Source: Bradyrhizobium sp. CCBAU 53340 (GTDB taxonomy: Bacteria; Pseudomonadota; Alphaproteobacteria; Rhizobiales; Xanthobacteraceae). From it: a DNA stretch of 64,000 nt. Below are positions 9,516-31,096 of the stretch, piece by piece; position 1 is the stretch's first letter, and each line of letters opens with the position of its first letter. Made by a program: the position numbers and the translations under genes. The notes under the pieces are model-generated. The model saw only the letters and a list, made by a program, of their open reading frames with translations, made no database searches and had not been told where the DNA came from. The DNA is taken from contig NZ_CP030055.1 of NCBI RefSeq assembly GCF_015291645.1, positions 186,001-250,000 on the forward strand. The letters are read 5' to 3'.

Positions 9516-9592
9516 TCGGCACTCGATCCAGCTTGAGGCTCCGTAACGCTTACTCCACTCGTTTTCAATCTCGCCAGTTCACGAGAATTACC

Positions 9593-11025: not shown

Positions 11026-11041
11026 CGTGAGGCGACACCAA

Positions 11042-11073
11042 GAAAGGGAGCTCGAACGCTCGGGCTCCCTTTC
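11042..11073. terminator. bidirectional intrinsic terminator between convergent genes
   Basis: A perfect 10-bp stem, GAAAGGGAGC paired with GCTCCCTTTC, separated by 12 bases. A-rich sequence lies on the left side and T-rich on the right. It sits exactly between the plus-strand gene ending at 11025 and the minus-strand gene ending at 11072. Confidence 0.8.
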
Positions 11074-11758: not shown

Positions 11759-12879
11759 TTAAAACATCCTATGGAGCAGGAGCGATCGAGTGGCCCATCC
11801 AACAAGTATCGGGAGCCTGCGATACATTTAGCGAGCGGGGCATGCTTCCATCGGCCACAGCCGAAAATATTTTGTCGGACGTAACCGACCTTCAATGCTT
11901 CGACCGAGGGGATGTGCTTCTCGCCCTCACTTCGTTCGGGCGAGCCTTCGGACCACAGGTAAGTTCGTTTGGTAGCTTTACGAAGCCTATTTTTATGTGC
12001 GGTTACGGAGGAGGTCATCACTTTGCCTTGCCGGCAAAATGATCCGTGCGTTTAGCGGCATCGGCATCATCGGACCAGAGGAACCACTCTCGTGGTCGGG
12101 GCCGGCAGTGCGGTGAGCCCCGTTACTCCTCTGCTTGTCTGCGCAGGGTCTCGGCAAGACCGGTCCGACGATCGTGCCACCCTTGACGGTCCAAAGCTTT
12201 CCCGTCTCTCGTCAGGCTTGGTTTAGCGACCGTTGCCTGCTTGGGTCGTTCATTTCCAGGAGTGGACCGGACGATGAGTCCAGGGCTCCGACCGGTGTCC
12301 CAGCCCACCGGGTTTCCGCAAGTACTCTTGCTCAGAGGTCGCGGTTCTAAGCCATGCTGGAATGTCCGATTACTTATCTGCGGACGGTCTTCTTCCCAGC
12401 TCCTCAAAACGGTGCGAGTTGTGAGCTAGGGGTTCGAGACACCTGCTGAGTTCATAAGGTGCGCGTCCGCAGTCCAACGGGGAGCAACGGACGGGCTAAC
12501 TGATAAGCCGCTATCTACAGTCGAAACGGATGAGCAGAAGCGTCAAAATGATCTTTTCGACGAACTGGACGCGCAAGGCCAAGTACGATTGCGAAGGGAA
12601 TCCGCTGCTCGGGTCCGCAGAAGAGCGGAAGGCATCGATGATCCTGAGGAAGGGAGATACTCGTCTTCGAACAAAACGACACCAAAGAGCCGACAGTGAC
12701 GACACTGAAACGCATGAGCGATTGATTGAGCGGCGTGGCTGGCGAGCGTTACGTATAGGTAACCCGTCAACGGGCTGGTGCCGTTGGACAACGAAGGAAC
12801 ACGACCGTAGATTCACGGTCTACGACGCGCGTTGGAATCGATATTATCGGGCCGTGCAACCTATCCGATTCGCTTCATC
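11759..12879. other. 1.1-kb region without a convincing gene
   Basis: Short frames exist on both strands, but none has consistent codon use or a recognisable sequence. At 11920-11944 there is a hairpin with a 7-bp stem (CTCGCCC / GGGCGAG). A smaller hairpin (ACCAC tctc GTGGT) lies near 12080-12100. The region is upstream of the HUH gene, so it could hold its promoter and a nicking origin, but no specific nick site is identifiable by eye. Confidence 0.4.
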
Positions 12880-13869
12880 ATGCGCCGCCCTCGCTATGGA
12901 TCCCTTGTCGAGAAAGCGACCCAAGCCGCCGTTGCGGCAATCGAGGTCTACAACAAACCCGGATTCAAGTACCGGGAGGAAACCTTTTCGATCCTGATGC
13001 TGAATGCGTGGGAGCTTCTGCTTAAGGCGCGCATCCTCAAGGCTAACCGGAACAAGCTCCGCTCTATCGAGGTATGGGAGCCGAGGATCACGAAGACAGG
13101 TAGCGGTAAGAGGCTAGCCCCGAAAAAGAACCGGGCCGGCAACACGATGACTATCGGCGTGCTGCCAGGGGCGAACATCGTGAGGCAGTACGCGCAGGAT
13201 TCGATTGATGACCACGCTATCGAGAACATCTCGCTCCTGATGGAGATCAGGGACAACGCGATCCACTTCCACAACGTGAGCCGGGACCTGCATAAGAGGG
13301 TGCAGGAGGTCGGAGCCGCGGCGCTGCGCAACTTCGCTTTCGCTGCAAGGAAATGGTTTAATTGCGACCTGTCCCAGTATCAGTTCGCGCTGATGCCCGT
13401 CGCCTTCGAGACACCGGCTGGAGTCATACAGACGGTCTTCAATGATGACACCAAAGGCGCCGCTGGCAAGCTCGCAAAGCTGTTGGCTGATCAGGAGCGG
13501 AAATTCCCCTTCGAGGCTGCTAAGCCCTTCAATGTCGGCGTGGAGGTCGAGCTGAAGTTCGTCCGGAACGCCAACGCGCAGGCGATACCGGTCATCGTCT
13601 CCCCCAACGATCCCAATGCCATTCGGGTGACGTTGAGCGAGGAGGACATGCTGAAGCGCTACCCCTGGGACTACCGGACGCTTTGCAAGGCGCTACGGAA
13701 GACACCCAACTTCAAAGAGAACGAGAGATTTCATAAGCTGCGCAGACCCCTTGAGGACGATCCGCGGCTTTGTCGCGTTCGTCTCCTCGATCCAAGGAAC
13801 AAGAAAAGCTCAAAGCAGCGATTTTACAGCCCGGCCATCCTCGACGAGATTGTGAAGCACTATGTTTGA
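12880..13869 (+). CDS. DUF3644 family protein, HEPN-like
   Basis: A 329-residue DUF3644 protein, recognised by YNKPGFKYREETFSILMLNA followed by WELLLKARILKANRNK. Residues 124-129 read RDNAIH, matching the R-x4-H catalytic pattern of HEPN ribonucleases, preceded by a helix ending in LLMEIRDN. The C-terminal half is basic. DUF3644 genes are often found in defence or mobile loci; a toxin or RNase role is inferred from the motif. The ATG at 12880 (MRRPRYGSLVEK) is preferred over an upstream start in another context. Confidence 0.75.
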   Translation: MRRPRYGSLVEKATQAAVAAIEVYNKPGFKYREETFSILMLNAWELLLKARILKANRNKLRSIEVWEPRITKTGSGKRLAPKKNRAGNTMTIGVLPGANIVRQYAQDSIDDHAIENISLLMEIRDNAIHFHNVSRDLHKRVQEVGAAALRNFAFAARKWFNCDLSQYQFALMPVAFETPAGVIQTVFNDDTKGAAGKLAKLLADQERKFPFEAAKPFNVGVEVELKFVRNANAQAIPVIVSPNDPNAIRVTLSEEDMLKRYPWDYRTLCKALRKTPNFKENERFHKLRRPLEDDPRLCRVRLLDPRNKKSSKQRFYSPAILDEIVKHYV

Positions 13870-14097
13870 GCGGCTGCGGCGTGATCAAACAATATGTTTC
13901 GAGAAATGCGGTCCGTCTTCAGCATGCGTCGGATAAGCGTCCGGACGTTCTTCGCGCCGCGCCAACTCCGAATCGGATGACGCGACTGTGATCATGGGCA
14001 AACCGTCCAAGAAGATCTTCGCATGCTTGCCGTTGGTACTAACGCGGTTGCCGATACCGAATCGCGTCTAGCTCGCTGGTCACCGCTTCCTTTTCGG

Positions 14098-14844
14098 TCA
14101 CTGGCACATTGCAAGGTGGCCGCCGTCTTCGCGCTCGTTAATGTCGATTTTGGCGTTGTCGACCGTTCGCGCAATCATCTTCCGCAACGTGCTGTCATGG
14201 CCCGGTGTCGTTTTCACGAGCAGGGTCCCGGCACCCGTGAAGAACACGTTGATTGAGTGACCAGTCCCTCTTGCTTCCGCGTACGGCGCGCTATCGGCCA
14301 CGACTGGCGCCGGGATGTCGCGCAAGAGCCGCAAGTCGTAATCACGACCGTCAGTGGTGACCACGGTGCCAGATTCCACGCCAGCAAAACCGGTATTGCG
14401 CATGGGCTCCGGAACCGTGCATTTCATGCCCAACAAGTTCAGGAAGCGCAGCACGTCCCCCGGGATTTCTTTCGGGCTCGCGCTGGATACCGTTCGTTGA
14501 GGAAGCCCGGCCCCGCAGTCCCCTCCGGTAGCAACCGCGAAGGCAACTTTGTCTGTCAGTGCTATGACGACGGCGCTAGCGCTGCGCGGGAAATAAAGCA
14601 GATACAGGCTATTCCTCGGAGTCTCAGCAACTGCTACCAGTGCACCAGCGCTAGCCAGCGCAGCGTTGCTGACTTTGTAAAACATCCCGAACACACCCGC
14701 TCTTGCGCCGTCTCCCAAGAACATAGTCCCCTCGCGCATGACCGCTCCGCCGCCGAAATTGCACATCATGCCGTCAGCTTTCGCGGCGGTAGCTGCCCAC
14801 GTCATGACGGTCATCATGCAAAGCGATATCAGCAGTTTCTTCAT
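14098..14844 (-). CDS. secreted protein of unknown function
   Basis: A 248-residue protein with a clear signal peptide (MKKLLISLCMMTVMTWAATA, cleavage probably after AKA). The mature protein has five or so cysteines (MMCNFGGG, GGDCGAG, GMKCTVP, and the C-terminal MCQ), suggesting disulfides in the periplasm. No family is recognised. It is followed upstream on the same strand by the DUF3892-like frame at 14875-15072 with only 30 bp between. Confidence 0.7.
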   Translation of the reverse strand: MKKLLISLCMMTVMTWAATAAKADGMMCNFGGGAVMREGTMFLGDGARAGVFGMFYKVSNAALASAGALVAVAETPRNSLYLLYFPRSASAVVIALTDKVAFAVATGGDCGAGLPQRTVSSASPKEIPGDVLRFLNLLGMKCTVPEPMRNTGFAGVESGTVVTTDGRDYDLRLLRDIPAPVVADSAPYAEARGTGHSINVFFTGAGTLLVKTTPGHDSTLRKMIARTVDNAKIDINEREDGGHLAMCQ

Positions 14845-14874
14845 TGTGTGGAACCTTTCGAAATTGGTTGCTGA

Positions 14875-15072
14875 TTACCTACACTCCGGTAGGCTCCATA
14901 GGTTGTCAGGCAGGAAGTCATCCGTCTCCGTTTTGAGGTAGTCGCGACTCTCATGCTTCGCGACTTTCACCCATACGGACTTGCCCTGCTCGCTTACGTA
15001 GTAGGAACGGGGATCCCGCTCGACGTTAGCGATCGCGGTTTCTTCAGAGTCTCGCCAGCCACTACCGTGCAT
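14875..15072 (-). CDS. DUF3892-like small protein, possibly N-terminally truncated
   Basis: The 65 residues resemble the C-terminal part of DUF3892 proteins: WRDSEETAIANVERDP, then SYYVSEQGKSVWVKVAK, then DYLKTETDDFLPDNLWSLPE. The same frame remains open upstream for about 50 codons (including SGIGDTNHRTAS) but offers no ATG, GTG or TTG, so either the ATG at 15072 is used or the 5' end is degraded. Function of the family is unknown. Confidence 0.55.
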   Translation of the reverse strand: MHGSGWRDSEETAIANVERDPRSYYVSEQGKSVWVKVAKHESRDYLKTETDDFLPDNLWSLPECR

Positions 15073-15207
15073 GTGATTTGACGAGCAGCTGTATGCTTTC
15101 CCATCGTTGCGGGGGCCGCTATTGACTGTTGACGAAGACGGACTCGCTGTCCTGTGGTTGGTATCTCCAATGCCACTAACGGCCCCTAAGCTGTGTCGCG
15201 GGGACGG

Positions 15208-15236
15208 AAGGCCACCCCCGCCAAGGTGGCCTTTTC
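15208..15236 (+). terminator. perfect intrinsic terminator with no known gene upstream
   Basis: A 9-bp perfect stem, AAGGCCACC paired with GGTGGCCTT, an 8-base loop and a run of T. It points along the plus strand, yet no plus-strand gene precedes it; both neighbours are on the minus strand. It overlaps a degenerate copy (15190-15222) of the island's dispersed repeat core. Confidence 0.6.
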
Positions 15237-15327
15237 CGACTCAGGGTTGAAACGGTGGATGATTCGCGCTGCAGAGTCGAATCCCGGAACCGTCTTACAG
15301 TGGATATCGGAGTCGCTCAGTACTCGG

Positions 15328-15912
15328 TCAAAGCTGCTGCACGACCCTTCGCTGCGCATCTGCATTCTCTTCGATGTATCGCTGTGTGGTCCGCAGGTTG
15401 GAGTGTCCGGCTAGGGCTTGAACGTCCCTGAGTGATCCGCCGACGGTGGAAATCTTCCGCGCAGCGCCAGTGATGAAGGTCCTTCGGCCGCTGTGACTGG
15501 AGCAGCCGACGAAGCCCAAGTGCCGATACCATCGCTGGAACATGTTCACGATCACTTGCGGTGATGTGCACGCCATTCGCTCAGTGCTGATCACGTAGTT
15601 GCCCGTCTCTCTGGTCAGAGTTTGTCGGCACGCGATGAGCGACGCCCTAATTTCGGGATGGATGGGAATTACACGGCCAGACGTTCCTTTGCTCGCATCA
15701 TCGGTTAGGTGGATGGCATGGCCGACTTGGCCAGTCGCGTCGCTGACCATGCGCCAAGTCAGGTGAGCGATCTCCTTCGCTCTAAGCCCGGCCTTTGTCG
15801 AGAGCAGGAAGATCAGCCTGTTCCGCTCCGGGTATCTGGTGGTTGAGAGATAGGCGAGGGTCGCCTCGGCTTGTCCTTTGCTCAACGTCTTTGCTTGCTT
15901 CCCCAAGCCCAT
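15328..15912 (-). CDS. small single-domain tyrosine recombinase
   Basis: A 194-residue protein that is only the catalytic domain of the phage-integrase family. The active-site set is visible: Arg44 in KAGLRAKEIAHLTW, a Lys near 75 in the beta-hairpin (DDASKGTSG), His140-x2-Arg143 (SSHSGRRTF), His170 (LAGHSNLRTTQ) and Tyr179 (QRYIEEN). It lacks the N-terminal SAM-like domain of XerC or typical integrases, like FimB/FimE-type enzymes. The dispersed repeat cores lie immediately on either side (15190 and 16035), so these are plausible substrates; that is inference. Confidence 0.88.
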   Translation of the reverse strand: MGLGKQAKTLSKGQAEATLAYLSTTRYPERNRLIFLLSTKAGLRAKEIAHLTWRMVSDATGQVGHAIHLTDDASKGTSGRVIPIHPEIRASLIACRQTLTRETGNYVISTERMACTSPQVIVNMFQRWYRHLGFVGCSSHSGRRTFITGAARKISTVGGSLRDVQALAGHSNLRTTQRYIEENADAQRRVVQQL

Positions 15913-16034
15913 CTCGTCCTCCAGGCGTCGGTCGACGGCTAACAGGACGCTGGACTGTAATCAGTTCGGATCATTGGTACATGCTTGCGTAGCAGGGCGG
16001 CCAGAAGGTCTACTTTCTAACCGGCTTTTTGCGA

Positions 16035-16077
16035 GCTGTGCTACCCTTTCCGGGGACCCAATTCGGCTACCCCCGCC
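16035..16077. repeat. dispersed repeat core, copy 1
   Basis: Core GCTGTGCTACCCTTTCCGGG followed by GACCCAATTCGGCTACCCCCGCC. Copies 2-4 are at 20076, 22871 and 25820, all in the same orientation. Within the core GCTACCC occurs twice, about 26 bp apart, and CCGGGG can pair with CCCCGG. Here only the core is conserved, unlike the other copies, which share 150-250 bp. Confidence 0.75.
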
Positions 16078-16145
16078 AGGGCGGCTGTACCCCGGTCCCT
16101 GCCACTCACCATGCGGATCGTTAGTCCGATAGGCGGGCGCTTTTT

Positions 16146-17141
16146 TTACGAGAGCGGGTCGACTTCCTCGTCAGGCTGCGGCTCGCCTTTGGCGACTAAC
16201 TCTTTCAGGAGTTCCAAATCGTCGTTCTTCAGGCCACCGCCGTACTTTGCCAGAAGCTTCGCATAAAACTGGTGAACGTCGGTATCATCGATGATCCAGC
16301 CAACTTGGTTGTTCTGCCCGGGGATTTTAATAAGGCGCTCCACCTGGGCGATGGTGAACTGCTCAAAAGCGTCGAGCTTTCCGATATAGCTATGCGTAGA
16401 GGCGAAACTGCCGCTATTGCTCAGGCTGTTGATGGCAAGATCGCTCTCAACCTGACTGGCTATCTTGATGTCAGGGAAACGGTCCTTAAAGAAATCGGAG
16501 ATCTTCGAGTAGTAATTAATGGACGATTTCTTCTCGGTCTCCCACTCGTCCCGCAGGAATTCATTGAAAGCGCCGTCGGAGAGCTGCGAGCGATAGTCCT
16601 TGTCCTCTGACACTAGATATAAGTCCGTACCTTTAGCGATAGTCGCCAACAACGTTTCCCAATTCATGGCATCTCCGAGGCTCTCGTTCTTTCCGGGCGG
16701 ATTGCCGAGCCGGACGCGCCGCAGCGCGTTCAGATAGTGCTCGTCATCGAACTCGGGCTTGGTCGCCACCTTGAAAAGGCCGGTCACGACCTCGTCGGCC
16801 TTGAGCGACATATTCTCGGCATCTTCTTTCATCTTACCAACCAGCTCAGCGTGGAGCTTGTCGGCCTTCTTCAAAGTGCCTCTCAGCTCCTCGTATTCCG
16901 AATAGTCTTTCGAGAACGCCGGAAAGGACGCATTGAACTTAGCTTCGCGCAGCTTTTTCATCGCGTCGGATATTTTCGCACCCCGATTGCGCCAGAACTC
17001 GTCCCCGACCTGCTTCGGAACTATGAGGCTGATCTCCTTATTCTTCACCAAAGCGACTAGCTTCTTCAGCTCTTCAATGTCCTCACTGGTGAGGTGATAG
17101 AAAGAAAGCAGGACGTTTGTGTCGATGAAAAGAGTGATCAT
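16146..17141 (-). CDS. PIN-like ribonuclease, DUF4935 family
   Basis: A 331-residue protein beginning at ATG 17141. The PIN fold is shown by MITLFIDTNVLLSFYH with the first catalytic Asp, SLIVPKQVGDEFWRNRGAKI with Glu, GDAMNWETLLA and DLYLVSEDKDYRSQL with the later acidic residues. A helical insert occupies the middle, as in DUF4935 proteins. Members of this group occur as toxin- or defence-associated nucleases. The upstream in-frame extension to 17411 has a different composition and is not counted. It is divergent from the DUF2235 gene. Confidence 0.75.
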   Translation of the reverse strand: MITLFIDTNVLLSFYHLTSEDIEELKKLVALVKNKEISLIVPKQVGDEFWRNRGAKISDAMKKLREAKFNASFPAFSKDYSEYEELRGTLKKADKLHAELVGKMKEDAENMSLKADEVVTGLFKVATKPEFDDEHYLNALRRVRLGNPPGKNESLGDAMNWETLLATIAKGTDLYLVSEDKDYRSQLSDGAFNEFLRDEWETEKKSSINYYSKISDFFKDRFPDIKIASQVESDLAINSLSNSGSFASTHSYIGKLDAFEQFTIAQVERLIKIPGQNNQVGWIIDDTDVHQFYAKLLAKYGGGLKNDDLELLKELVAKGEPQPDEEVDPLS

Positions 17142-17486
17142 GCGCCGACTCGCAAAAGACCGGCGCAGTGAAGAGTACCAGGAGAGCTTTTTCAAGGGCT
17201 CATCCGCAGGTTTAGTGCTGAGGGGCCTTGACGCGCCAGGTCTCGACAGAAACGTGGCCATCGCCCCAGCAGGGTTGACGGCAAGCTGGGCATGCCGAGC
17301 CGCCGGCCGTATGGCCGCCTTACCCTTCCCATGAGCATCGCCGATCTTATTGCGGAGTAATCCCGGCCCCGCAAAAGTAGCGAGATACGGAAACAATCGC
17401 GCTGCGTGCATTTGTGCGGCAAACGGATTACCCTCGGGCTATGGGTCGATTCGCTTTAGTTCAAGCGGACGAGGCGGGGTGTCATC
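17142..17486. other. divergent intergenic region between PIN and DUF2235 genes
   Basis: 345 bp that must hold promoters for both flanking genes. A minus-strand frame is open through much of it (up to 17411) but reads as low-complexity Ala/Gly/Arg sequence without a family match. No clear operator or sigma-70 box stands out by eye. Confidence 0.4.
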
Positions 17487-18785
17487 ATGAGAACGGCTTG
17501 GCGGATATTCGAGCGTTTTGCGCATTGGGTTGGTCTATTCATAGCCATCGTGGCCATCGTAGCGGTGGGCGTGATCATTGGTCGGCCAGCGGAGAAGAGC
17601 GGCTACCAGCCAAACTTTGCAAACGTCGAGCAACAGCAAAAGCGACTTGTGGTCTTCTTTGATGGCACCTGGAATAGCGTCGATAGCAACACAAATGTCT
17701 GGCGCATGCGGGCGCTGTGCGCGGCCAAGAGCAAGGATGGAAAATCCCAGCTTGTTTACTATTCCGTCGGCGTCAACGGCTTCTTGGGCGGAGTATTCGG
17801 CCAAGGTCTCGATGATAACATCCGTCTAGCGTACGAATGGCTTATCGAAAACTACAATGACGGGGATGAAATCTTCATCTTCGGATTTAGCCGAGGGGCC
17901 TTCACGGCTAGAAGCTTTGCGGGATTGATCGCCATTAATGGCATTCTGAAAGCTGGAGCGCCGATTGGAGTGGCTGAGTTGTTTGAGCGCTATAAGAAGG
18001 GAAACGAAGAGAGCATCTGGGATCTAAGGGACAAGGTAGCGGCTGGGGACACTAGCAAGATAACCCAGCAGGAGAAATGGCTGCTCAAATACTCATTGCC
18101 GACAAAGATAAAGGTAGTCGGTGTCTGGGACACAGTAGGATCAGTGGGATTGGCAGCTGGGAATATCCCCGGTGTTAGCCGTTCTTCGTTTGACTATCTG
18201 CAAACAGGACTTCGCATCCATATTCTGAATGGTTATCATGCTCTTGCTATTGACGAGCACCGCAAAGATTTCGCCCCAACGCTTTGGGACGTTCATCATA
18301 AAGACCCGAAGAATCTTTCGCAGGTCCGCCCCCTATCGGGGGTGGAGCAGCGGTGGTTCGTTGGCGCGCACGCAAATGTCGGGGGAGGCTATGAGACCGA
18401 TCTACTTGCGCAAGCACCACTGCGTTGGATGATGAAGAAGGCCGAGTCCCAAGGGCTTTCATTCCGTTCCGAAGTGGACCTTGATGGCGATGATATGACA
18501 GGAAAAATTGCCGACTCCTATAAGTCATTTGGATCGGGAGTGTATGCTTGGATTTTTCCGCCGCTTTATCGCACCATTGGACAAGAGCCGGACATTCGAG
18601 ACGACGGAAGCCATGTTAACGTAAACGAGACGATAGACGCCAGCGTGTTTAAGCGATGGCGCTCGGACCCCACGTATCGCCCGGCTAATCTTGTCGAGTG
18701 GGCGCAGCGCAAGAAAGTTGATCCGGCTCAATTTCAGACTTCCGTGCGGGCGGACGACCCTAGCGTTGGCGTATCGGACCCATAG
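17487..18785 (+). CDS. DUF2235 alpha/beta-hydrolase with N-terminal membrane anchor
   Basis: A 432-residue protein. Residues 13-31 form one membrane segment (WVGLFIAIVAIVAVGVIIG). The DUF2235 domain follows: KRLVVFFDGTWNSVDSNTNV, the nucleophile elbow GFSRGAFTARSFAG with Ser135, VVGVWDTVGSVG, and WFVGAHANVGGGYE near the C-terminus. The family includes Tle1-type phospholipase effectors of type VI secretion, but many members are free-standing and of unknown role. No VgrG or PAAR gene is near, so an effector function is not supported here. The DUF3883 gene follows on the same strand. Confidence 0.85.
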   Translation: MRTAWRIFERFAHWVGLFIAIVAIVAVGVIIGRPAEKSGYQPNFANVEQQQKRLVVFFDGTWNSVDSNTNVWRMRALCAAKSKDGKSQLVYYSVGVNGFLGGVFGQGLDDNIRLAYEWLIENYNDGDEIFIFGFSRGAFTARSFAGLIAINGILKAGAPIGVAELFERYKKGNEESIWDLRDKVAAGDTSKITQQEKWLLKYSLPTKIKVVGVWDTVGSVGLAAGNIPGVSRSSFDYLQTGLRIHILNGYHALAIDEHRKDFAPTLWDVHHKDPKNLSQVRPLSGVEQRWFVGAHANVGGGYETDLLAQAPLRWMMKKAESQGLSFRSEVDLDGDDMTGKIADSYKSFGSGVYAWIFPPLYRTIGQEPDIRDDGSHVNVNETIDASVFKRWRSDPTYRPANLVEWAQRKKVDPAQFQTSVRADDPSVGVSDP

Positions 18786-18905
18786 CCGACCTGCATCTGA
18801 GAGCTTGTTACTTCGACGGCGCGAGCTCAAGTGACGACGTCGGCTACGGACCCCGCCAAAGCGCGTCATCACGACAGACATAGAGAAGATTTCGTAGGAA
18901 AGACC

Positions 18906-19961
18906 ATGGCTCACGACAGTCCAGCGCGAAGCTTAAACAGGCTGACAAGCCCAACGGCGGTGAAAGCTGCTATCGCCGAGTGCGATCAATTAGGGCGGGA
19001 CGCTTTTCGTCGCCTGTATCACTTTAAGCCCGCGCGAGCGTATGCCCTTCATTTCTCGGACGGTGTTTATGACTCAAAAGCCATAGCGGCGGTCGCGTTT
19101 GGATATCAGTTTGGAACCGAGCCACTTGCGTGGGATGAATGTAGTGGCGGAAAGGTCAAGGGAAATGCTGCTTGGGCTTTAGATCGACTGGGCTTTCGCG
19201 TCATCGGGGTCAAGCACGTGGGGTGGTGGATCGAAGAAGCGGAAGCCGCAGTTGACGCCTATCTGGAGATGCTCGCGCTGCATCAAGCTGGCTTGCCCTT
19301 CAAGAAGAAGGACTACCACAGCAAATTGCACTCGCAGAGACCCACTCGCACAGCCAAGGCTTACGAATGGAAGCTACAAAACGTAAGCGCAGTGCTTCAA
19401 GAGATGGGGAGGGAATGGCTGCCCGGATACGCGCCGGCTCCGGGTTTCCAGACTCTTCTGCGGTACGTCTTGGAAGATCGCATTGGCCGGGATGTCGATA
19501 GCTCGGAAGCAGAGGCGATCCGTGCCGAGTCTCCGAGCAAGCCCCGACTGGTCAAAATCGACTGGGCGCTAAGAGACGCCGAAAATCGAGAACTCGGCAA
19601 GGCCGGCGAACGGTACGTCTTCGAGCAAGAGCGGCAAGCGCTGAAGGATGGCAAAAGGCCTGATTTGGCCGCGAAGGTGAAATGGGAGGCGAGTGAGGCG
19701 GATGGCCAGGGATACGACATCTCTTCGTTTGATCTTGATGGAAAGTCTATCCACATCGAAGTCAAGACGACAGCGCGTGGCGAGGCCACGCCCTTCTTCG
19801 TGTCTAGCAATGAAGTTCGCGTGTCATCCCGACTGAACGAATCGTATCGGCTCTATCGAGTGTACAATTTCCCGGCTTCGCCTGAGATTGCCGTCTATCG
19901 GGGAGCGCTTGAGAAATGCCTCGTGCTGAATCCTGCGTCCTATCGCGCGCAACGCAAATGA
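18906..19961 (+). CDS. DUF3883 nuclease with ScoMcrA-like head domain
   Basis: A 351-residue protein. The N-terminal part (YALHFSDGVYDSKAIAAVAF followed by GTEPLAWDECSGGK) resembles the DNA-recognition head of the Streptomyces McrA-type modification-dependent endonuclease. The C-terminal part is a DUF3883 domain, a PD-(D/E)xK-type fold, with DISSFDLDGKSIHIEVKTT giving the D...ExK residues. The combination predicts a Type IV restriction enzyme acting on modified DNA; that prediction is by family. The ATG at 18906 is preferred to the upstream GTG at 18831 because GGAAAG lies just before it. Confidence 0.78.
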   Translation: MAHDSPARSLNRLTSPTAVKAAIAECDQLGRDAFRRLYHFKPARAYALHFSDGVYDSKAIAAVAFGYQFGTEPLAWDECSGGKVKGNAAWALDRLGFRVIGVKHVGWWIEEAEAAVDAYLEMLALHQAGLPFKKKDYHSKLHSQRPTRTAKAYEWKLQNVSAVLQEMGREWLPGYAPAPGFQTLLRYVLEDRIGRDVDSSEAEAIRAESPSKPRLVKIDWALRDAENRELGKAGERYVFEQERQALKDGKRPDLAAKVKWEASEADGQGYDISSFDLDGKSIHIEVKTTARGEATPFFVSSNEVRVSSRLNESYRLYRVYNFPASPEIAVYRGALEKCLVLNPASYRAQRK

Positions 19962-19989
19962 AGTCGGTTGCCCTCTGGTGAGGGCTGTT

Positions 19990-20216
19990 CCGTCCGCTCG
20001 CGGCGTAGAGGCAGAAATAGACCGTAAGAGCGGGATCAGCGGCTTCTCGGATCTCGCGACGAAGGGTCCTTGCTTGCTGTGCTACCCTTGCCGGGGACCC
20101 AATTTCGGCTACCCCCGGGGCTAGGCAGTCGAGCGGCCGGCCGCCGTCATCTGCCACCGCAAGCTTAGGCGGATTTCCGTTGTGACCGCGCCGGCAACTT
20201 CTTCGGCGACGCGTCC
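19990..20216. repeat. dispersed repeat, copy 2 (long form)
   Basis: The core is at 20076-20118. The similarity with copy 3 runs further on both sides: from CCGTCCGCT on the left to GACGCGTCC on the right. On the minus strand the right part ends a small frame with LPARSQRKSA then stop (stop at 20165), the same ending as in copy 3. In copy 2 the frame has only a late ATG at 20233. Confidence 0.72.
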
Positions 20217-20411
20217 TTGGGCAACGCTTCCATCGGGCGGCAATATTCGCCGATTTGGTCCTCGCTTATAGTCTTGTTTGATGTATCGACGAAGGGCTCA
20301 CGGCGGTCTATGCGGCCATGGGTTCGCTCATCTCCCTCCTAGTCGGCATAATCGGATTTTTACTACGGGAAGGCTCGACCTGAGCCGGGGGCATTTACGC
20401 CCCGGAGAAGC

Positions 20412-20528
20412 TTAGTTCGAATTACAGCCGTTACCGCAGCCACCGGCCCCACACCCCCCACCGGTGCCGCAGCCGTCCAGTCGCGCTTGACAAGTCCGTG
20501 CATTTGCCAGATCGTTCAGAACGAGCAT
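20412..20528 (-). CDS. 38-residue Cys/Gly-rich peptide, possible RiPP precursor
   Basis: ATG at 20528, TAA at 20412. The first half reads MLVLNDLANARTCQARLD and the second half GCGTGGGCGAGGCGNGCNSN: five cysteines and ten glycines in the last 20 residues. A leader followed by a Cys/Gly core is the layout of ribosomally made, modified peptides such as microcin B17-type precursors. No cyclodehydratase, radical SAM or MNIO enzyme is seen in the island, so modification is speculative. A structural metal-binding role is possible. No strong ribosome-binding site precedes it. After the stop there is a GC-rich hairpin (CCGGGGC ... GCCCCCGG). The lipoprotein and protease genes start divergently 40 bp away. 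Confidence 0.5.
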   Translation of the reverse strand: MLVLNDLANARTCQARLDGCGTGGGCGAGGCGNGCNSN

Positions 20529-20568
20529 TTTTTATAGCGGCTCTTTTTGGTTGTTGGGGGCGGCAACC

Positions 20569-21636
20569 GTGTCAATTGTCTTACGCGCGAAGCGCATGGG
20601 CGCAGCTAGCATCGCTGCGACTTTGACGGCTTGTACCGGACTAAACGTTGTCCATGACCCGCAGGGCGTCATGGATCGGCAACAAGTGCAGGGGCTCGTC
20701 AAATCAGTCAAATGCGAATTGATTACATATCTCGAAGCAAATCGTCGTCGGAAGACAGACTACTTCGATGTATCTGAGCAGCTGTTCGGCAACGTGATCC
20801 TCGATCTGAACGTTGTTGATATCGCGGGCTTTGCGAGCGGAAGCACCAGTATTGACCGTCTTCGCACGGTCAATGATAGCGAAAACTTCACATGGCATTT
20901 TGGTCCTACGCTTAATGGGCAGGGGACCTATGACATGATCCTGAGTTTCCTTCTGCCGCAGAATGCGAGGATTAGCTTCGCGGCGACTAAGGACGATTCT
21001 GTCCGATGTTACAGCGGCCCACTCAATAGCGACTTCGAGGGCTTGGCGCGCGGTGATTACAGTGACAGTGAGCAATTCGTCCGTATTCGGGTGAATGGTG
21101 TGAAGCCGCTTGCCAGTTGGCTTCTCGATCTCGGCAAGGATATGTGGTCTGGCATGGAGGCCGCCAAGCTAGGGGAAACCGCGTATCCGGCTCAAATGGC
21201 TTACACCTTCACCGTTCAAGTCACGGCCGGACTTGAAGTGAAATATTCGCTTATAAACCCGATGTGGAACCCCCTTGGCATCGGCGGGGCGGCATCGACG
21301 CAACAGACGAATAAACTCCAATTCACACTCAACGGCGCAGATGCATCCCTGGCGTCCGGTGCGAGTACTGGCCTCGCCGCTATTGGTGGTGGGACGCCGC
21401 CTTATCAACCACCTCAGCCACCACGGGCTCGCGTACCAACCGCAGCACCGCCGGCCTCAGCACCTCTTGCCGCGCCCTCGGGACAAGAGGCAGCGCCGCC
21501 GCAAGCGGCGCCATCAGAAAAGACCGAGCGCCGCACTCGACATCGCCGGCCAGCGTCGGCAGCCCCGCCCAGAGGGATGCCGCAGGGCTATCTGCTTGCG
21601 CCAGTCCCGATTATTGCACCACGCCCCGTACATTAA
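20569..21636 (+). CDS. putative lipoprotein with proline-rich C-terminus
   Basis: About 355 residues from GTG 20569. That start gives a basic n-region (VLRAKR), a short hydrophobic stretch and a lipobox LTAC at the expected distance; an internal ATG at 20596 would lose the basic residues. The middle is a beta-rich domain of unknown type (FGNVILDLNVVDIAGF, TVQVTAGLEVKYSL). The last 90 residues are rich in Pro, Ala and Arg and probably disordered. It is followed 23 bp later by the metalloprotease gene, so the two form a pair acting in the envelope. Confidence 0.68.
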   Translation: MSIVLRAKRMGAASIAATLTACTGLNVVHDPQGVMDRQQVQGLVKSVKCELITYLEANRRRKTDYFDVSEQLFGNVILDLNVVDIAGFASGSTSIDRLRTVNDSENFTWHFGPTLNGQGTYDMILSFLLPQNARISFAATKDDSVRCYSGPLNSDFEGLARGDYSDSEQFVRIRVNGVKPLASWLLDLGKDMWSGMEAAKLGETAYPAQMAYTFTVQVTAGLEVKYSLINPMWNPLGIGGAASTQQTNKLQFTLNGADASLASGASTGLAAIGGGTPPYQPPQPPRARVPTAAPPASAPLAAPSGQEAAPPQAAPSEKTERRTRHRRPASAAPPRGMPQGYLLAPVPIIAPRPVH

Positions 21637-21659
21637 TCGCGTAGCATTGGGAGAGACCT

Positions 21660-22652
21660 GTGCTGAAACGTGTGACCCTTTCGGTTATCCTACTGGCGAC
21701 ACTTGGATCTATTGCGACCGCATGGGCGCATTCGCTCGAGAAGGTCGGCACTGACAACACGGTTCAATGGAAGCCGGAGCGGCTCAACTATCTACCGCTC
21801 GATCGTATCCCTCGACCGACACTTGATGTCGGCCATGCCGGGTTAGAGTCGGTCGTTGTGCTTCCCAATCGATGGGCGCAAACTCAAGCTATTCATGTAT
21901 GCTTCGTGGGCGGTACGCCAGAGTTACGCAACAAGATCATCGGGATCGCCAAGACTTGGCTGCAGTACATCAATCTTAGTCTGGCAGCTGGAAGCGAGAA
22001 CGGCCCTGATTGCGTCGATCACGACAAAAGCGAAGTGCGCATAGGCTTCTCGGAGCCTGGCTACTGGTCTTACATCGGCACCGACGGCATCGCCACCGAG
22101 CTTGTCGACAAAAACCTCACCTCGATGAACTTTGAAGGGTTCGACAAGAACGCGCCGGCAGAGCCTCGCTTCACGGGTATTGTGCTTCATGAATGGGGAC
22201 ACGCCCTTGGTCTACATCATGAACATCAGAGCCCAGCGAGCGGCTGCGACGCCGAATATGATTGGCCGAAATTGTATGCCTACTACAAGAGCAACTATAA
22301 CTGGGACAAACCGAAGGTCGATGCCAATGTGAAGCAGCTCGCGGCAGACAGATCAGCTTACGACTGGTCCCAGCGGGATCCGGATTCCATCATGATCTAT
22401 GGCAGCGATCCACAATTTCTAAAGAAGGGCACCCATAGCAAATGTTACTTTCACGACAACAATTCGCTCTCCAAACTTGACATAACGGGCATTCAAAGGA
22501 CCTATCCAAAGACAGGCGCGGACGCCGCACTAAAATTTCAGTCTGTAACGCTGCCAATTGTTCTCGAGATGCAGATTCCGGACAATCTCCGGTCAGCACT
22601 GACGATCCAGCAGTCCCTTACAAAGACGCAGCTAAATCTCAAGGCTCAATAG
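21660..22652 (+). CDS. secreted astacin/matrixin-like zinc metalloprotease
   Basis: A 330-residue protein from GTG 21660 with GGAGAGA just upstream. A signal peptide (VTLSVILLATLGSIATAWA) precedes a zincin domain. The zinc site is VLHEWGHALGLHHEHQSP, that is HExxHxxGxxHE with His177, Glu178, His181 and His187; the Met-turn is DSIMIYGSD. This fits the metzincin group, closest to astacins by the HE ending. Substrate unknown. The neighbours are a lipoprotein and, divergently, a Cys/Gly-rich peptide; cleavage of that peptide is a tempting but untested idea. Confidence 0.85.
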   Translation: MLKRVTLSVILLATLGSIATAWAHSLEKVGTDNTVQWKPERLNYLPLDRIPRPTLDVGHAGLESVVVLPNRWAQTQAIHVCFVGGTPELRNKIIGIAKTWLQYINLSLAAGSENGPDCVDHDKSEVRIGFSEPGYWSYIGTDGIATELVDKNLTSMNFEGFDKNAPAEPRFTGIVLHEWGHALGLHHEHQSPASGCDAEYDWPKLYAYYKSNYNWDKPKVDANVKQLAADRSAYDWSQRDPDSIMIYGSDPQFLKKGTHSKCYFHDNNSLSKLDITGIQRTYPKTGADAALKFQSVTLPIVLEMQIPDNLRSALTIQQSLTKTQLNLKAQ

Positions 22653-22767
22653 GACTGACGCGAAGCAGAGCATTGCATCGGGTCCGAATCCCACCGGCCG
22701 CAAGGCAGGCTACGCGAGTGCAGCCAAATCGATCATAATCTGAGAGGATCAAGCGGGGCTCGCTTCC

Positions 22768-23024
22768 TCGTCCGCTGCTTCCCGAGAGCAGACGTTGAAC
22801 CTTGCATTTGAAGCTTCTGAGAACGCGGGATCAATGGCTCGAAGGATCTCGCAACGAAGGATCATTGATTGCTGTGCTACCCTTTCCGGGGACCCATTTT
22901 CGGCTACCCCCGGCCCCCGTTCGGTCCAGCGGCTGGCTGCGACCAAGTCCGTCATCCAGCGTCACCTGGCCTTCACGCCGATTTCCGTTGCGACCTCGCC
23001 GGCAACTCCTTCACCGACGCGTCC
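22768..23024. repeat. dispersed repeat, copy 3 (long form)
   Basis: Core at 22871-22913: GCTGTGCTACCCTTTCCGGG followed by GACCCATTTTCGGCTACCCCCGG. The left flank (CTCGTCCGCTGCTTCCC...GAGAGCAGACGTT and CTCGCAACGAAGGATC) is shared with copies 2 and 4; the right flank to GACGCGTCC is shared with copy 2. On the minus strand GTAGCC GAA AAT GGG TCC gives a frame also kept in copies 2 and 4, but it is short and without a consistent start. Confidence 0.78.
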
Positions 23025-23140
23025 GTGGCTGGCCCCTTCTTCCCCGCGATTGGCATCAGCATCTCCTTCTGCCCGGCGGACGTCTTCTTCGGCTTCTTGG
23101 GCGGCTTGGCGGACTTTGCCGACGCGTTCCGGAAGACCAC
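22973..23140 (-). CDS. small basic protein, doubtful
   Basis: A 55-residue frame from GTG 23140 with a Lys/Pro-rich middle (SAKPPKKPKKTSAGQKEM) and the ending LPARSQRKSA. The third codon positions are rich in G and C. The same ending occurs in repeat copy 2, which argues that the sequence was once coding or that the repeat includes a gene end. It lies 33 bp after the small membrane protein frame at 23174-23398. Confidence 0.35.
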   Translation of the reverse strand: MVFRNASAKSAKPPKKPKKTSAGQKEMLMPIAGKKGPATDASVKELPARSQRKSA

Positions 23141-23173
23141 TGAGACTCGACAGGGTACGCAGCGATCGCCGGA

Positions 23174-23398
23174 TTACCCCCCGGATAGCCAGGACAGCCC
23201 GTATTTTCCAAGCCAAGCCGTTGCTGCCGAACTAATGAGCGAAACCAAGCCGGCCCAGAACCAAGAGCGTCCTCGTGCCGCACTTATCGAGCGCAAATAG
23301 AGGAAGGCTCCTAGCAGCGGTCCGTAATTCCTCCGGAAGTCTCCGTTGAGCTTGGCTATCTTCGACAGCTCCGGAGAGGTTTCATGTCCATCAGGCAC
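23174..23398 (-). CDS. small membrane protein, doubtful
   Basis: A 74-residue frame from GTG 23398. The C-terminal half has a membrane segment (WFWAGLVSLISSAATAWLG) and the N-terminal half is charged (SPELSKIAKLNGDFRRNYG). No family is known to me. It may form a two-gene unit with the next frame. Confidence 0.4.
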   Translation of the reverse strand: MPDGHETSPELSKIAKLNGDFRRNYGPLLGAFLYLRSISAARGRSWFWAGLVSLISSAATAWLGKYGLSWLSGG

Positions 23399-23776
23399 GT
23401 GCTGGCTCCCATATCGAGTACCAGCACCCTATCAACCACTGTTTTGCCCGACGGCGCAAGAGATATTTCGGTTTATCGAAATCTGAGTCCCTCGCTTCGA
23501 GTCAGGCTCTGACCATCATGGCTGCGAAATGGCGTCTGAGAGGGAACAAAGAGAAAGTTGTGCGAGCGATCGTACCCGTTAGGCGAACCAGGATCTGATG
23601 TCGGCCATCAGGGGCAGAGCGGACACGGGGTTACGCTCGCTCCGACCGCTGCTTGTGACCCATTGCAGACTATCCGTGTTCATTCAGTATTGAGCATCTG
23701 GCGAACGGATGATTGACGCTCCGGGATCACGCAACCATAAGGGATAATTGGCTAGGGTCGCTTGGGCGAATACGAC
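23399..23776. other. 378-bp region without a gene
   Basis: No frame of note and no strong hairpin. A short imperfect palindrome, ATTTCGGTTTATCGAAAT, lies near 23468-23485. The right end must carry the promoter of the small membrane protein at 23777. Confidence 0.35.
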
Positions 23777-23986
23777 ATGATGATCCATGACGACCCTTGG
23801 TTTGCGCTCTATTTCACTTTCCTTGTGTTCATCCACGAACTTGTGCGTGATCCCGGCAAATTCGTGCCTTTCTTCATCGTTCTCACGATGCTCAGCTATA
23901 TCGGCTTCGAATTCATCCGCGCCTATCGTCGTCGACGCCGATCGGCCGATGACCACAATCAAGAGCCGCCTCGAAGCCAATCTTGA
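23777..23986 (+). CDS. small membrane protein
   Basis: A 69-residue protein from ATG 23777 (a TTG at 23762 would add five residues). It has one or two hydrophobic stretches (WFALYFTFLVFIHELV and FVPFFIVLTMLSYIGFEF) followed by a basic, hydrophilic tail (RRRRRSADD). Topology suggests the tail is cytoplasmic. Family unknown. Confidence 0.5.
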   Translation: MMIHDDPWFALYFTFLVFIHELVRDPGKFVPFFIVLTMLSYIGFEFIRAYRRRRRSADDHNQEPPRSQS

Positions 23987-24122
23987 TTTCCCCTGTTGGC
24001 CCTATGCTGCCTATGTTTAAGTTCGTTCAAGTGTCGGCTGTCGAGTGTAGACCGGAAGCGCTTTGCGGGGAGCCAGACCGCCAATTTTGACCCTTAGCGG
24101 AAATTAACGTTGTGCGATCAAG

Positions 24123-24539
24123 ATGACCGACATGCACTCCGAATTGCTTCATCAACAGCCCTATTTGGTCCACACCAACAGAGAACTGGGCCTGATGCTG
24201 AGGGGTGCAAAGCCCCTCGCGTATTTTATGGACATCATCGGTCGTGAGCCAGACGTCTGTTTACGGTATTGGCGCATGTTCGATAGGCATGTTGATCTGG
24301 GGCGCCTGATAAGGCGCGAGGTATTCGAACCATGCCCTGGCCTGCCGCAACTCAAATACCGAAGGCTATTCTACGCCTTACCGGGCCACGAGTGGCGGAT
24401 AGATGCCATGCTTGCGCTCCTAAACGAACTCGAAGCGTGGTCCGAAGATCACGAACGGCGCTCTTGTGAATTGCTTGGCTACGAAGGCTGGCAGATTGAC
24501 TATTGGTTGGCGCACCGTCGCTCGCGTGTGAACGCTTAG
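24123..24539 (+). CDS. hypothetical protein
   Basis: A 138-residue soluble protein, rich in Leu, Arg and Trp (YFMDIIGREPDVCLRYWRMF, HEWRIDAMLALLNELEAWSE). It has a helical pattern and no recognised domain. The ATG at 24123 follows a run without other frames. It is separate from the solute-binding protein gene by 173 bp of sequence with no clear frame. Confidence 0.6.
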   Translation: MTDMHSELLHQQPYLVHTNRELGLMLRGAKPLAYFMDIIGREPDVCLRYWRMFDRHVDLGRLIRREVFEPCPGLPQLKYRRLFYALPGHEWRIDAMLALLNELEAWSEDHERRSCELLGYEGWQIDYWLAHRRSRVNA

Positions 24540-24712
24540 TCCCCTTGTGGCCCATCGCGACAAACTCGGTCCGCGCGTCGATGTCGGCGATGAGGGCTAA
24601 ACCGGACCCGGCATTGACCGGGTCAAACCGACGCCATTGACCCGCTGCGGACATGAGCCCTAGCCGCCATTTCTGTTTCTCGGTACTATTTAAGCGCCAA
24701 GAGGGGGGATGC

Positions 24713-25672
24713 ATGAACAGGCGGGATTTTATTGTAGGAATTGCGTTGCTGCCCAACTTCGACCGAGCTAGTGCGCAAGGCCGTGTGCGACGCGTCGGAG
24801 CCCTTATTGCGGAGCCAGCGCAGGCTAACTTTCTTGAAGGTCCTCTTAGGGAAAAGGGCTGGACGCTCGGACGGGACCTCCAAATCGACTATCGCATAAC
24901 GCGCGGCGATACCAATCTCTCACAGGCATATGCCCGTGAGCTGCTCGCGTTGCAGCCTGATGTCCTGTTTGCAATTACCAACACGTCGATGGCCGCGCTG
25001 TATGCCGAACACTCTAACGTTCCGATCGTTTTCGCAATGGTAAGCGATCCAGTCGGAATGCGTTACGTCGAGAGCTTCCCGAAGCCTGGCGGTACTGTGA
25101 CAGGCTTTACGCCATTTGAGCCTTCTCTGGGCGGCAAATGGGTGTCGCTTATCAAGGAAGTGGCATCAAACGTCGAGCACGTGGGCATCATATACAACCC
25201 TGAACCGGGCAACAATTCTTCAGCGTTCCGCCAGTCAATTGACGATGTTGCCCGCAAGACGGGCATCGTCTCGATTGAGACGCCGCGCGGCGATAGCTCG
25301 GACATTGATCGGCTTATTCGCTACCTCAAGGACAAACCAAACAGCGGTCTCATTTTCTTGCCAGACGCGATTACATTTGTGCGACGTGCCCAGATTGTTG
25401 CGCTGGTTGCAGAATGCAAGTTACCCGCAATCTATCCGTTTCGTGCCTTCTGTGATGCAGGAGGCCTCGTGTCGTACGGGGTAATAATCGAGAGGATCAT
25501 TGCGGGCGCCGCATCATATGTTGACCGGGTTTTACGTGGTGCCAATCCTGCTGAACTCCCGGTTCAGGCGCCAACGGAATTTGAGTTGATCGTGAACCAA
25601 AAAGCCGCATGGCAATTCGGCCTGCAACTTCCGCCCACTTTGCTCGCTCGTGCGGACGCCGTGATTGAGTAG
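24713..25672 (+). CDS. ABC-type substrate-binding protein (ABC_sub_bind family)
   Basis: A 319-residue protein of the TrpX-like ABC_sub_bind family. The N-terminus MNRRDFIVGIALLPN looks like an export signal with a twin Arg. Family segments are RVGALIAEPAQANFLEGPLR, LLALQPDVLFAITNTSMAAL, NVPIVFAMVSDPVGM and GLIFLPDA. No permease or ATPase gene is adjacent, so it is an orphan; many such orphan genes occur in Bradyrhizobium. The ATG at 24713 has GAGGGGGGA upstream. Confidence 0.85.
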   Translation: MNRRDFIVGIALLPNFDRASAQGRVRRVGALIAEPAQANFLEGPLREKGWTLGRDLQIDYRITRGDTNLSQAYARELLALQPDVLFAITNTSMAALYAEHSNVPIVFAMVSDPVGMRYVESFPKPGGTVTGFTPFEPSLGGKWVSLIKEVASNVEHVGIIYNPEPGNNSSAFRQSIDDVARKTGIVSIETPRGDSSDIDRLIRYLKDKPNSGLIFLPDAITFVRRAQIVALVAECKLPAIYPFRAFCDAGGLVSYGVIIERIIAGAASYVDRVLRGANPAELPVQAPTEFELIVNQKAAWQFGLQLPPTLLARADAVIE

Positions 25673-25718
25673 TTGACTTCTGCTTATGGCCCTTAGGCGA
25701 CATGGCGGAGCGCGGACT

Positions 25719-25877
25719 AGCCGTCCGCTACTTGGTCGAAAGCAGACGTTCACAGGTGAATATTCTGGACAGCGGGGAGGAAATGGCTTGAAGGGTCTCG
25801 CAACGAAGGATCTTTGGTTGCTGTGCTATCCTTTCCGGGGACCCATTTTCGGCTACCCCCCGGCCCCGTTCGGTCCA
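25719..25877. repeat. dispersed repeat, copy 4
   Basis: Core at 25820-25863, with one change (CTATCC for CTACCC) and one extra C. The left flank (CCGTCCGCTACTTGGTCGAA, then AGCAGACGTT and TCTCGCAACGAAGGATC) matches copies 2 and 3. The right side matches copy 3 to CCCGTTCGGTCCA and then diverges. Confidence 0.78.
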
Positions 25878-26029
25878 TAGCTCGATGTGACGAGACGAGC
25901 CTTGCGCCTCACCAGCTCGGGCGACCTGTTATGAAACGCCCGGTCAATGCTGAATTGTAATCGGTCCGAGAAGGGGGCGCTTCTCCGCGGTCTTCAAAAC
26001 GCCCACCGGTCAGGGACTTGTAGGGACTT

Positions 26030-26053
26030 ATGATAGAAGGGTTATTCTATCAT
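26030..26053. promoter_or_regulatory. perfect inverted repeat, operator or hairpin
   Basis: ATGATAGAA and TTCTATCAT are a perfect 9-bp inverted pair with a 6-base spacer. It lies 100 bp beyond the stop of the minus-strand operon that ends at 26155, in an A/T-rich stretch. It could be an operator or a transcript-end hairpin; neither is certain. The rest of 25878-26154 shows no gene. Confidence 0.45.
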
Positions 26054-26154
26054 CTGTCGGGATCGCCTCGCAGCCAGAGAATGTCCTGGCACAACTGGCG
26101 ATGCGGATCGCCCAGGGCACGACCGTCAGCCACGTTCAATTGTGCCTGGTCGAA

Positions 26155-27168
26155 TTAGTTCTCACGAATCCAATCATCGACTGCGATCATGAGGCTACGG
26201 CTGCTTGCAATAGCGGGTCTTATCAAATCGGATGTGTTTTGACCATCCAATCTGATCCTTTCACCCTTGTCCGCTTTTGGAATTGCTAGGAATTTTTGCT
26301 GCCTGACATACTCGTCATCCGCGACTGCGGCCCTGTGTAGTAGCGCATTCCTTACTGCACTGAGGGCATCCATCGACTTGTTCGCGATCGCGGTCTCGAC
26401 CCTAGAGGACTTCTCGGAAAACGCTCTCATGTATGCCTCTCTTGCACCAGAGAGACGGGCAAATTCGAAGCGTCTCGCAGAACGCAAAATCGATCCCATG
26501 TGCACACGGAGGTCGAAACCGTGTTTGGCGACTACGTTTAGGTCGAGCTTCTTATCTTGATCGCTGGGGTTCTTATCATACTGATTCTTGTCAGCATCTT
26601 TTTTTGGCTTTCCATTCAGTGATGCAAGCGTCCTTGGGTGAGCGTTTAGTGCAGCTTCCCATAAATCGGCAAGCATCGTTTCGATAGCGGTCCACGTGCC
26701 TGTTATGCAGCCGGATAGCAGGGGAATGAATCCATACGCGCCGATCGGCGTATCGGCAAAGCTGCTCAAGGATCGCGCCGCATTAAGATGATAGTCCAGA
26801 ACATGACCATCCCAACCTGGAGTCTGGCGTAGCTCTTCGTTTCGATTTCTTTCCTTATCGAGCATTTCCTTAGCGATTAGTGCGGCCTTGATATTCTCAT
26901 CCTCGGTCAACGTGTTGCCGAGTTGTCCCGTTACCTGAAATTCTGCTAGGTCGTGACATCGTTGCGTAAGTGCCATGGCGGAAACGATCGACGTCGGAAG
27001 GGACATCATAAATCGCACGGTCGCTATATTGGCTCTGAAACTCGTTGCAACGCCTTCTAGGGGTGAACCTTCAAGCCTCGGAATGTCCCAATTTTCCTGA
27101 CCCAAGCGTGCAAGCGCTTCTAGCTTCAAGTCGCGAACGGGAAATTCTGGAACCGGTGGGACCGCCAT
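26155..27168 (-). CDS. HEPN-like protein, last gene of SIR2-HerA operon
   Basis: A 337-residue helical protein from ATG 27168. Residues 273-278 read RNALLH, in the segment SMDALSAVRNALLHRAAV, matching the R-x4-H motif of HEPN RNases. A hydrophobic helix (GFIPLLSGCITGTWTAIETM) is followed by a charged linker. I do not recognise a named family. Only 35 bp separate it from the KTSC gene, so it should be on the same transcript. Alternative: a structural HEPN relative without catalysis. Confidence 0.6.
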   Translation of the reverse strand: MAVPPVPEFPVRDLKLEALARLGQENWDIPRLEGSPLEGVATSFRANIATVRFMMSLPTSIVSAMALTQRCHDLAEFQVTGQLGNTLTEDENIKAALIAKEMLDKERNRNEELRQTPGWDGHVLDYHLNAARSLSSFADTPIGAYGFIPLLSGCITGTWTAIETMLADLWEAALNAHPRTLASLNGKPKKDADKNQYDKNPSDQDKKLDLNVVAKHGFDLRVHMGSILRSARRFEFARLSGAREAYMRAFSEKSSRVETAIANKSMDALSAVRNALLHRAAVADDEYVRQQKFLAIPKADKGERIRLDGQNTSDLIRPAIASSRSLMIAVDDWIREN

Positions 27169-27203
27169 GACTAAGCATTCCGACGTCGAGCCGAGCACAC
27201 GCC

Positions 27204-27416
27204 TTACCCGACACGAGAAAATGGGTAGGCGTTCTTGATGTAGGCGTTAAGAAATTGACCCTTGGATGGAGCCATCATCAGTTGATCATATAACGCGGCA
27301 TTGACGTTATAATACTGATAAACTGAACCTGAGCTAAACTCGACCTCAAGCGTTTCGGAACCGGCATCGTAACCCAACGAGAGGATATTGGTCGATGCCA
27401 CGGGCTCTCGCATCAT
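27204..27416 (-). CDS. KTSC domain protein
   Basis: A 70-residue protein that is a complete KTSC domain: SLGYDAGSETLEVEFSSGSV, YQYYNVNAALYDQLM, then QFLNAYIKNAYPFSRVG. KTSC domains are small beta-barrel-like modules, sometimes fused to Lys-tRNA synthetase-like or nucleic-acid-linked proteins; the function is unknown. The start overlaps the stop of the HerA gene by 4 bases, so it is translationally coupled. Confidence 0.82.
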   Translation of the reverse strand: MMREPVASTNILSLGYDAGSETLEVEFSSGSVYQYYNVNAALYDQLMMAPSKGQFLNAYIKNAYPFSRVG

Positions 27417-31085: not shown

Positions 31086-31096
31086 CCCCTGCAGTC

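Follow-up and report, generated by a model that had tools for sequence, protein, structure and literature searches.

A putative site-specific cassette array beside a catalytic-domain-only tyrosine recombinase in a Bradyrhizobium genomic island

Integrons are the textbook case of gene capture, and their folded single-strand site, attC, which carries the motif GTTRRRY, is widely seen as their distinguishing feature. Here we analyzed a 64,000-nucleotide stretch of Bradyrhizobium sp. CCBAU 53340 (NZ_CP030055.1, positions 186,001 to 250,000, forward strand; the window hereafter), in which the gene of a small tyrosine recombinase, int, stands at one end of a row of gene blocks separated by a repeated core of about 41 bp. 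The locus resembles an integron in having a recombinase gene beside a primary, attI-type site, in cassettes that run head to tail with each ending in a site of the same orientation, in a conserved platform with variable contents, and in a cassette gain or loss of about 2.94 kb with breakpoints at the site (one case). Solitary sites without a recombinase also occur, as in the clusters of attC sites lacking integron-integrases (CALIN; PMC8618304). It differs from integrons in its recombinase, which has 194 aa and is not IntI, in its sites, which have no folded-strand signal and no GTTRRRY in the core, and in its blocks, which measure 1.9–8.2 kb and in several instances hold more than one gene. 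As two defining integron features are lacking, we do not file the array as an integron despite its integron-like working.

Other described systems share part of this layout. Modules of cis-mobilizable elements (CIMEs) and integrative and mobilizable elements (IMEs) are also bounded by direct-repeat sites without a recombinase of their own, and one recombinase may serve many of them; however, the scanned modules here contain no mobility genes, and the first site lies beside the recombinase instead of in the end of a host gene, the comM insertion belonging to the whole island. Xer/dif and pdif sites are two-armed, about 30 bp long and built around a 6-bp centre, like sites in the wider int family, and int distantly resembles XerC-like, XerA and XerD chains among PDB sequences. 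By NCBIfam cut-offs, though, int is not XerC or XerD (it reaches none, the best being XerC and XerA-like at 45 bits vs 335 and 220); moreover, the palindrome here lies beside the recombinase gene and the repeats share one orientation. Relatives of int are also found in 58 of 50,697 phage records, all below 60% identity; ten listed ones, from phages of Caulobacter, Sphingobium and others, are 37.5–42.5% identical to int, and the annotation of the phage relatives reads just "tyrosine recombinase" or "integrase". We consider a site-specific cassette array with int as its enzyme to be the best explanation of the locus, and a likely one. A description of a cassette array with this recombinase was not recognized in the literature searched, which left most papers of subscription journals and all bioRxiv preprints outside.

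The core occurs at 16035, 20076, 22871 and 25820, each time on the + strand, with spacings of 4041, 2795 and 2949 bp between successive copies. In the 8.7-Mb genome, a 29-base core pattern (up to 3 mismatches) gave four forward, no reverse and no control matches, and all four fall in this 10-kb stretch. A 39-base pattern with the same tolerance found three of the four window cores against 0.00 expected from 100 shuffles; it misses the core at 16035, which is one base short there. Ungapped comparison places the conservation in and just left of the core: among sites 2–4 the core is 93–98% identical and the left 40 bp are 70–85% identical, compared with 12–45% for the DNA beyond the left 40 bp or right of the core. 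Site 1 is 96–100% identical to sites 2–4 over the initial 26 bp of its core, and 28–33% identical to them over the left 40 bp. Sites 2–4 have 96 nt in common, with 75% and 93% identity to the reference copy. The exact core pattern had no match in the named genome collection and none in viral contigs. GTT is absent from the 41-bp core, which hence has no GTTRRRY, and the folding energies of 12 site sequences were not in excess of shuffles (z −1.1 to 1.9), so the core was rejected as an attC-like hairpin.

An initial annotation of this DNA had described cores at these four positions in one orientation, a distinct gene group in each interval, a small catalytic-domain-only tyrosine recombinase at the array end, and the lack of both attC features and an IntI-like recombinase; all of this was reproduced. 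Its degenerate copy at 15190 was not: with the profile of the four cores this position scores E = 190, and we rejected it as a fifth core.

The features of the array follow one another from int rightwards; handles beginning with G denote compared genomes, 265 of them from the genus, the window genome being G000. The int gene (15328..15912, − strand) encodes the 194-aa tyrosine recombinase, and next to it 15913..16034 (+) contains the int leader and the left half of the attI-like site, as placed by alignment and palindrome positions. A dyad here, degenerate in the window and clearer in G192, sits where the palindrome of the recombinase family lies. Core 1, the attI-type site (16035..16074, +), precedes cassette 1 (16075..20075, +), which by Pfam and PADLOC holds a PIN protein (on the − strand), a Tle1-like hydrolase and a NOV_C protein (PDC-S36); the two latter Pfam families, T6SS_Tle1-like_cat and NOV_C, are presumably the same as the DUF2235 and DUF3883 named initially. 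Site 2 (20030..20116, +; left arm plus core 20076–20116) leads to cassette 2 (20117..22870, +), with a 361-aa protein that Pfam does not match and another that matches metalloproteases weakly. Site 3 (22762..22911, +; left arm plus core 22871–22911) is homologous to G192 47417–47566 and is followed by cassette 3 (22912..25819, +), where Pfam places a 138-aa protein and an ABC substrate-binding protein. Site 4 (25682..25860, +; left arm plus core 25820–25860) adjoins a conserved right border (25861..26057, +), whose leader-like DNA ends in a 32-bp palindrome (26026–26057), some 165 bp past the last core. This palindrome is the site type of related recombinases, and the DNA between it and the last core aligns with int leaders. 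PADLOC matched proteins of cassette 1 (PDC-S34, weak, and PDC-S36) and none of those scanned in cassettes 2 and 3, so the cargo in the window is only partly defence.

The int protein matches Pfam Phage_integrase (E 9.6e-17) over residues 9–183. Residues R44, K75, H140, R143, H170 and Y179, which we take to be the tyrosine recombinase catalytic set, are invariant in both a 7-sequence and a 37-sequence alignment. Between the window and G192, the nonsynonymous rate (dN) is 0.069 and the synonymous rate (dS) 0.951; int is under purifying selection, and a dS near 0.95 means that the compared arrays are old.

Across the 265 genomes, the window-type core pattern was present in four: G000 with four copies, G192 with three, and G106 and G128 with one each. 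A fifth core genome, G263, was found with a second pattern and then with a profile built without it (E 4e-8), and by profile G192 has six cores, two of them partial, all on the + strand. Relatives of int at E ≤ 1e-45 are more widespread (32/265 genomes). The closest are in G192 (87% identity) and G106 (84%, with one stop inside); more distant ones are in G174 and G041 (73% each), G139 (70%), G062 (66%) and G107 (64%). All three genomes with an int of at least 84% identity are among the five with a core (hypergeometric p = 3.3e-6). A pattern for diverged cores (up to 3 mismatches) matched 6/265 genomes; its reversed control matched more (10), so this pattern is weak alone. Matches in G062, G139, G174 (contig C19) and G263 were kept on profile support, and those in G037, G135 and contig C56 of G174 were dropped; the G062, G139 and G174 copies were themselves part of the supporting profile, and score E 0.0028 to 0.21 with a window-only profile. 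The wider association (six genomes common to eight with a core and eight with int, p = 1.7e-9) leans on the diverged-core pattern and is not our main evidence.

Comparison with G192 and G106 showed conserved ends with different contents. The block formed by int and the first core is common to G000, G192 and G106 (81–83% identical DNA), with the core 123–129 bp upstream of the int start in all three, and its homology from 15328 onwards breaks off where the core ends, at 16074 against G192 and 16073 against G106. At the right border, window 25820–26054 is matched by G192 DNA running rightwards from the last core there. In the interior, blastn (E ≤ 1e-3) detected nothing in common but site arms and a 315-bp piece (23171–23484) that also occurs in a G192 cassette. 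Core matches to G192 and G106 are mostly 84–94% identical, and homologous matches including core flanks reach lengths of 189–237 bp. Aligned base by base at site 4, the window follows G192 on its left side to the end of the core starting at 47526, and on its right side from the middle of the last core, starting at 50468 in register. The window core at 25820 thus matches the G192 core at 47526 leftward and the next one rightward, so that G192 has 2942 bp extra, core to core. The extra DNA holds a gene for an 822-aa restriction-helicase protein (ResIII, Helicase_C, Mrr_cat_2), and another G192 interval (42653–45601) encodes the two proteins of a type III-A retron according to PADLOC. We regard it as well supported that this is a cassette array whose breakpoints fall at the core, and as likely that the adjacent int drives it.

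The proposed mechanism is as follows. Just upstream of its start, int would have its own attI-like site, and each cassette would end in a longer attC-like site made up of a left arm (AATGGCTTG... at site 4) and the 41-bp core. The attI-like site and its counterpart on a circular cassette would exchange strands within the common core, which would insert that cassette beside int; repeated insertion would produce a head-to-tail row of blocks, some with phage-defence genes, and exchange between two sites would remove a block. Exchange inside the core between the attI-like arm and the cassette arm would leave the former at the first junction and the latter at all later ones, which matches the window. 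For the placement of the crossover two readings fit, a dyad ending in GCTGT and the inverted pair GGGGACCC-AATTTC-GGCTACCCC, the second being the part that survives in truncated and diverged copies. The role of int as the enzyme, the circular intermediate, the exact crossover base and continued activity of int are all inferred.

We weighed three other explanations. The blocks could be a tandem accretion of decayed, CIME-like integrative elements that lost their own recombinases and kept their att sites, int belonging to the youngest element. Such tandems are described (PMC5704250). Direct-repeat boundaries with a single int fit this account, as do the alignment of the right border with int leaders and partial int copies near sites in G042 and G303, but it is unlikely, given that the three window intervals contain no int remnant (tblastn E ≤ 1e-6), that no mobility gene was seen among the scanned cassette proteins of the window and G192, and that the sites do not occupy the end of a conserved host gene. 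Ordinary homologous recombination, with RecA swapping blocks at an old repeat in a defence hotspot and int as a bystander, could use the flanking homology past the core (up to 189–237 bp) and would agree with cores that have no int nearby in G128 and G263. It would not lead one to expect identity among sites 2–4 to fall off so sharply outside the core and its left 40 bp, cores that stay as similar to those of G192 and G106 as they are despite a dS of 0.95, a first core at a near-constant distance from int in the three genomes whose int is at least 84% identical, or a single orientation for every copy, and we judge it quite improbable. That the core is a promoter, terminator or operator carried along with genes, without any role in recombination, is very improbable: sites 2–4 do lie 115–219 bp past the end of a + strand gene, and five of nine core copies examined contain a CCGGGG/CCCCGG inverted repeat, but core-adjacent genes point both ways, folding energies are indistinguishable from those of shuffles, and the core-to-core difference would be left unexplained.

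Several observations weigh against a site-specific array driven by int. The centre of the core varies by copy (AATT-C, AATTTC, ATTTTC, AGATTC), a variation not to be expected under strict double-strand exchange, and at two G192 sites the left portion of the core is missing. There was no int relative near the core within the 22.7 kb (G128) and 60 kb (G263) examined, and no core was detected in G041 and G107, which do have int. G106 carries just one core, its right border being without any. In G174, G062 and G139 the site next to int is the palindrome, and the related cores are at the opposite side of the gene. The clean core-to-core insertion is just one case, window against G192, and neither a circular form nor a recent exchange was seen. 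The initial annotation had expected the core to flank different cargo near recombinase homologues in other strains, with breakpoints at the core, and G192 and G106 fit this. It had also named cores without recombinase homologues as evidence to the contrary, and G128 and G263 provide this in part. We regard its proposal of integron-like capture as partly supported.

A broader reading is possible, and we advance it tentatively: the locus may be an integron-analogous capture platform that evolved separately from a family of catalytic-domain-only tyrosine recombinases. Such a platform would use a two-armed double-strand site beside int to take up whole gene systems, defence included, and its sites would be clade-specific, with the 41-bp core here and a 32-bp palindrome with a AATGGCTTG-like box in Afipia and relatives. 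If true, a second platform of the same layout, with its minimal recombinase and ordinary-looking site, would point to more than one origin of cassette capture. It would also give multi-gene systems, including those for defence, a means of accumulating and being replaced in genomic islands.

Relatives of int in public data number at least 7619 proteins (E ≤ 1e-40, with scoring limited to the 7998 candidates that share the most words with it), among them 85–90% identical recombinases of further Bradyrhizobium strains (P0004, P0009, P0010, P0013, P0018). Among 41 genome_contigs loci they come from Rhodobacteraceae, Sphingomonadales, SUP05, SAR116 and other groups. Plasmid records with relatives number 156, of which 149 are from Piscirickettsia, all below 60% identity; the one such plasmid region inspected is rich in transposase genes. 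Neither the right border nor the int region had a match in plasmid DNA. Viral contigs contain a relative at six loci. In this wider family, the best imperfect palindrome is centred −127 to −133 from the int start at 18 of 54 distinct loci (binomial p 1e-10), and in several Bradyrhizobium genomes it is about 32 bp long, with 13-bp arms around 6 bp. Near that position the window clade has a different dyad, which is most distinct in G192; its right end coincides with the core start. A second palindrome in the same direction lies 4.1 kb further in G041 and 5.9 kb further in G139, and of 391 genomes searched with a family-wide pattern, 10 contain the palindrome, against no control matches.

Seven palindrome sites from five other family genomes (G303, G443, G451, G397 and three from G501), compared as 3-kb pieces, show matches of 32–52 bp in most pairs found, and their flanks are mostly unrelated. 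Longer matches join two G501 sites (72 bp) and a G501 site with one of G139 (81 bp, 80% identical). To the right of some sites, a short motif recurs. The box AATGGCTTG lies left of the palindrome in three of the seven, with a near form in two; it is also present at window site 4 and G192 site 47526, and at window site 3 with one change. Around the 41 genome_contigs loci, a second copy of int-upstream DNA in the same direction was found in six (L081, L085, L094, L096, L101, L107; E ≤ 0.01), but none of these copies was of the palindrome located roughly −110 to −146 from int. With no second palindrome copy around these loci, arrays are not general in the family, a further point against our explanation. 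L094 (3549–16637, Rhodobacteraceae HTCC2083) was rejected as an array of this family: its repeated 116-nt pieces come from the end of another recombinase gene, one encoding 402 aa. The repeated stretches there carry that gene, several being marked by 116-nt copies of its 3′ end, and may represent an accretion system. Separately, repeats that look to us like tRNA gene ends flank stretches of 8–16 kb at L087 (5736/13878), L096 (1486/10130) and L085 (2326/18418), each of which contains an int relative.

The array lies within a low-GC island (8030..34120; GC 0.52–0.61 vs 0.64–0.69 in the flanking 7–10 kb) that adjoins the 5′ end of a gene at 6575–7993, presumably comM-like. Window positions 8020 and 34129 correspond to the neighbouring bases 14500 and 14501 of G139, so the junction is unoccupied there. 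At the right end of the island, an open reading frame (32297..34060, − strand) with homologues in the G139, G174 and G451 islands encodes what we take from its sequence to be a large serine recombinase, which probably moves the island; related stretches with the comM-like gene and a similar serine recombinase are present in the same three genomes.

Other parts of the island were also conserved or defence-related. On the + strand at 11985–12360, an element of about 360 nt is kept in six related islands with a consensus structure of 95 pairs, 16 of which change on both sides (reached by 0/500 shuffles; sliding partners give 2–5); further pair types were not above shuffles (330/500). Rfam returned no match for it at E ≤ 1, and it is a candidate for an unlisted structured RNA. 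The blocks 30593–31085 (six genomes, 81–88% DNA identity) and 31575–31884 (four genomes, 76–90%) are likewise conserved in related islands, and the three − strand open reading frames tested there have no Pfam match. Left of int, 12832–13869 (+) encodes a DUF3644 protein of the PADLOC candidate defence family PDC-S19 (E 1e-124), and between the right border and the island end, 27413–30597 (−) encodes SIR2 and HerA proteins (PADLOC E 4e-161 and 2e-157), an anti-phage pair.

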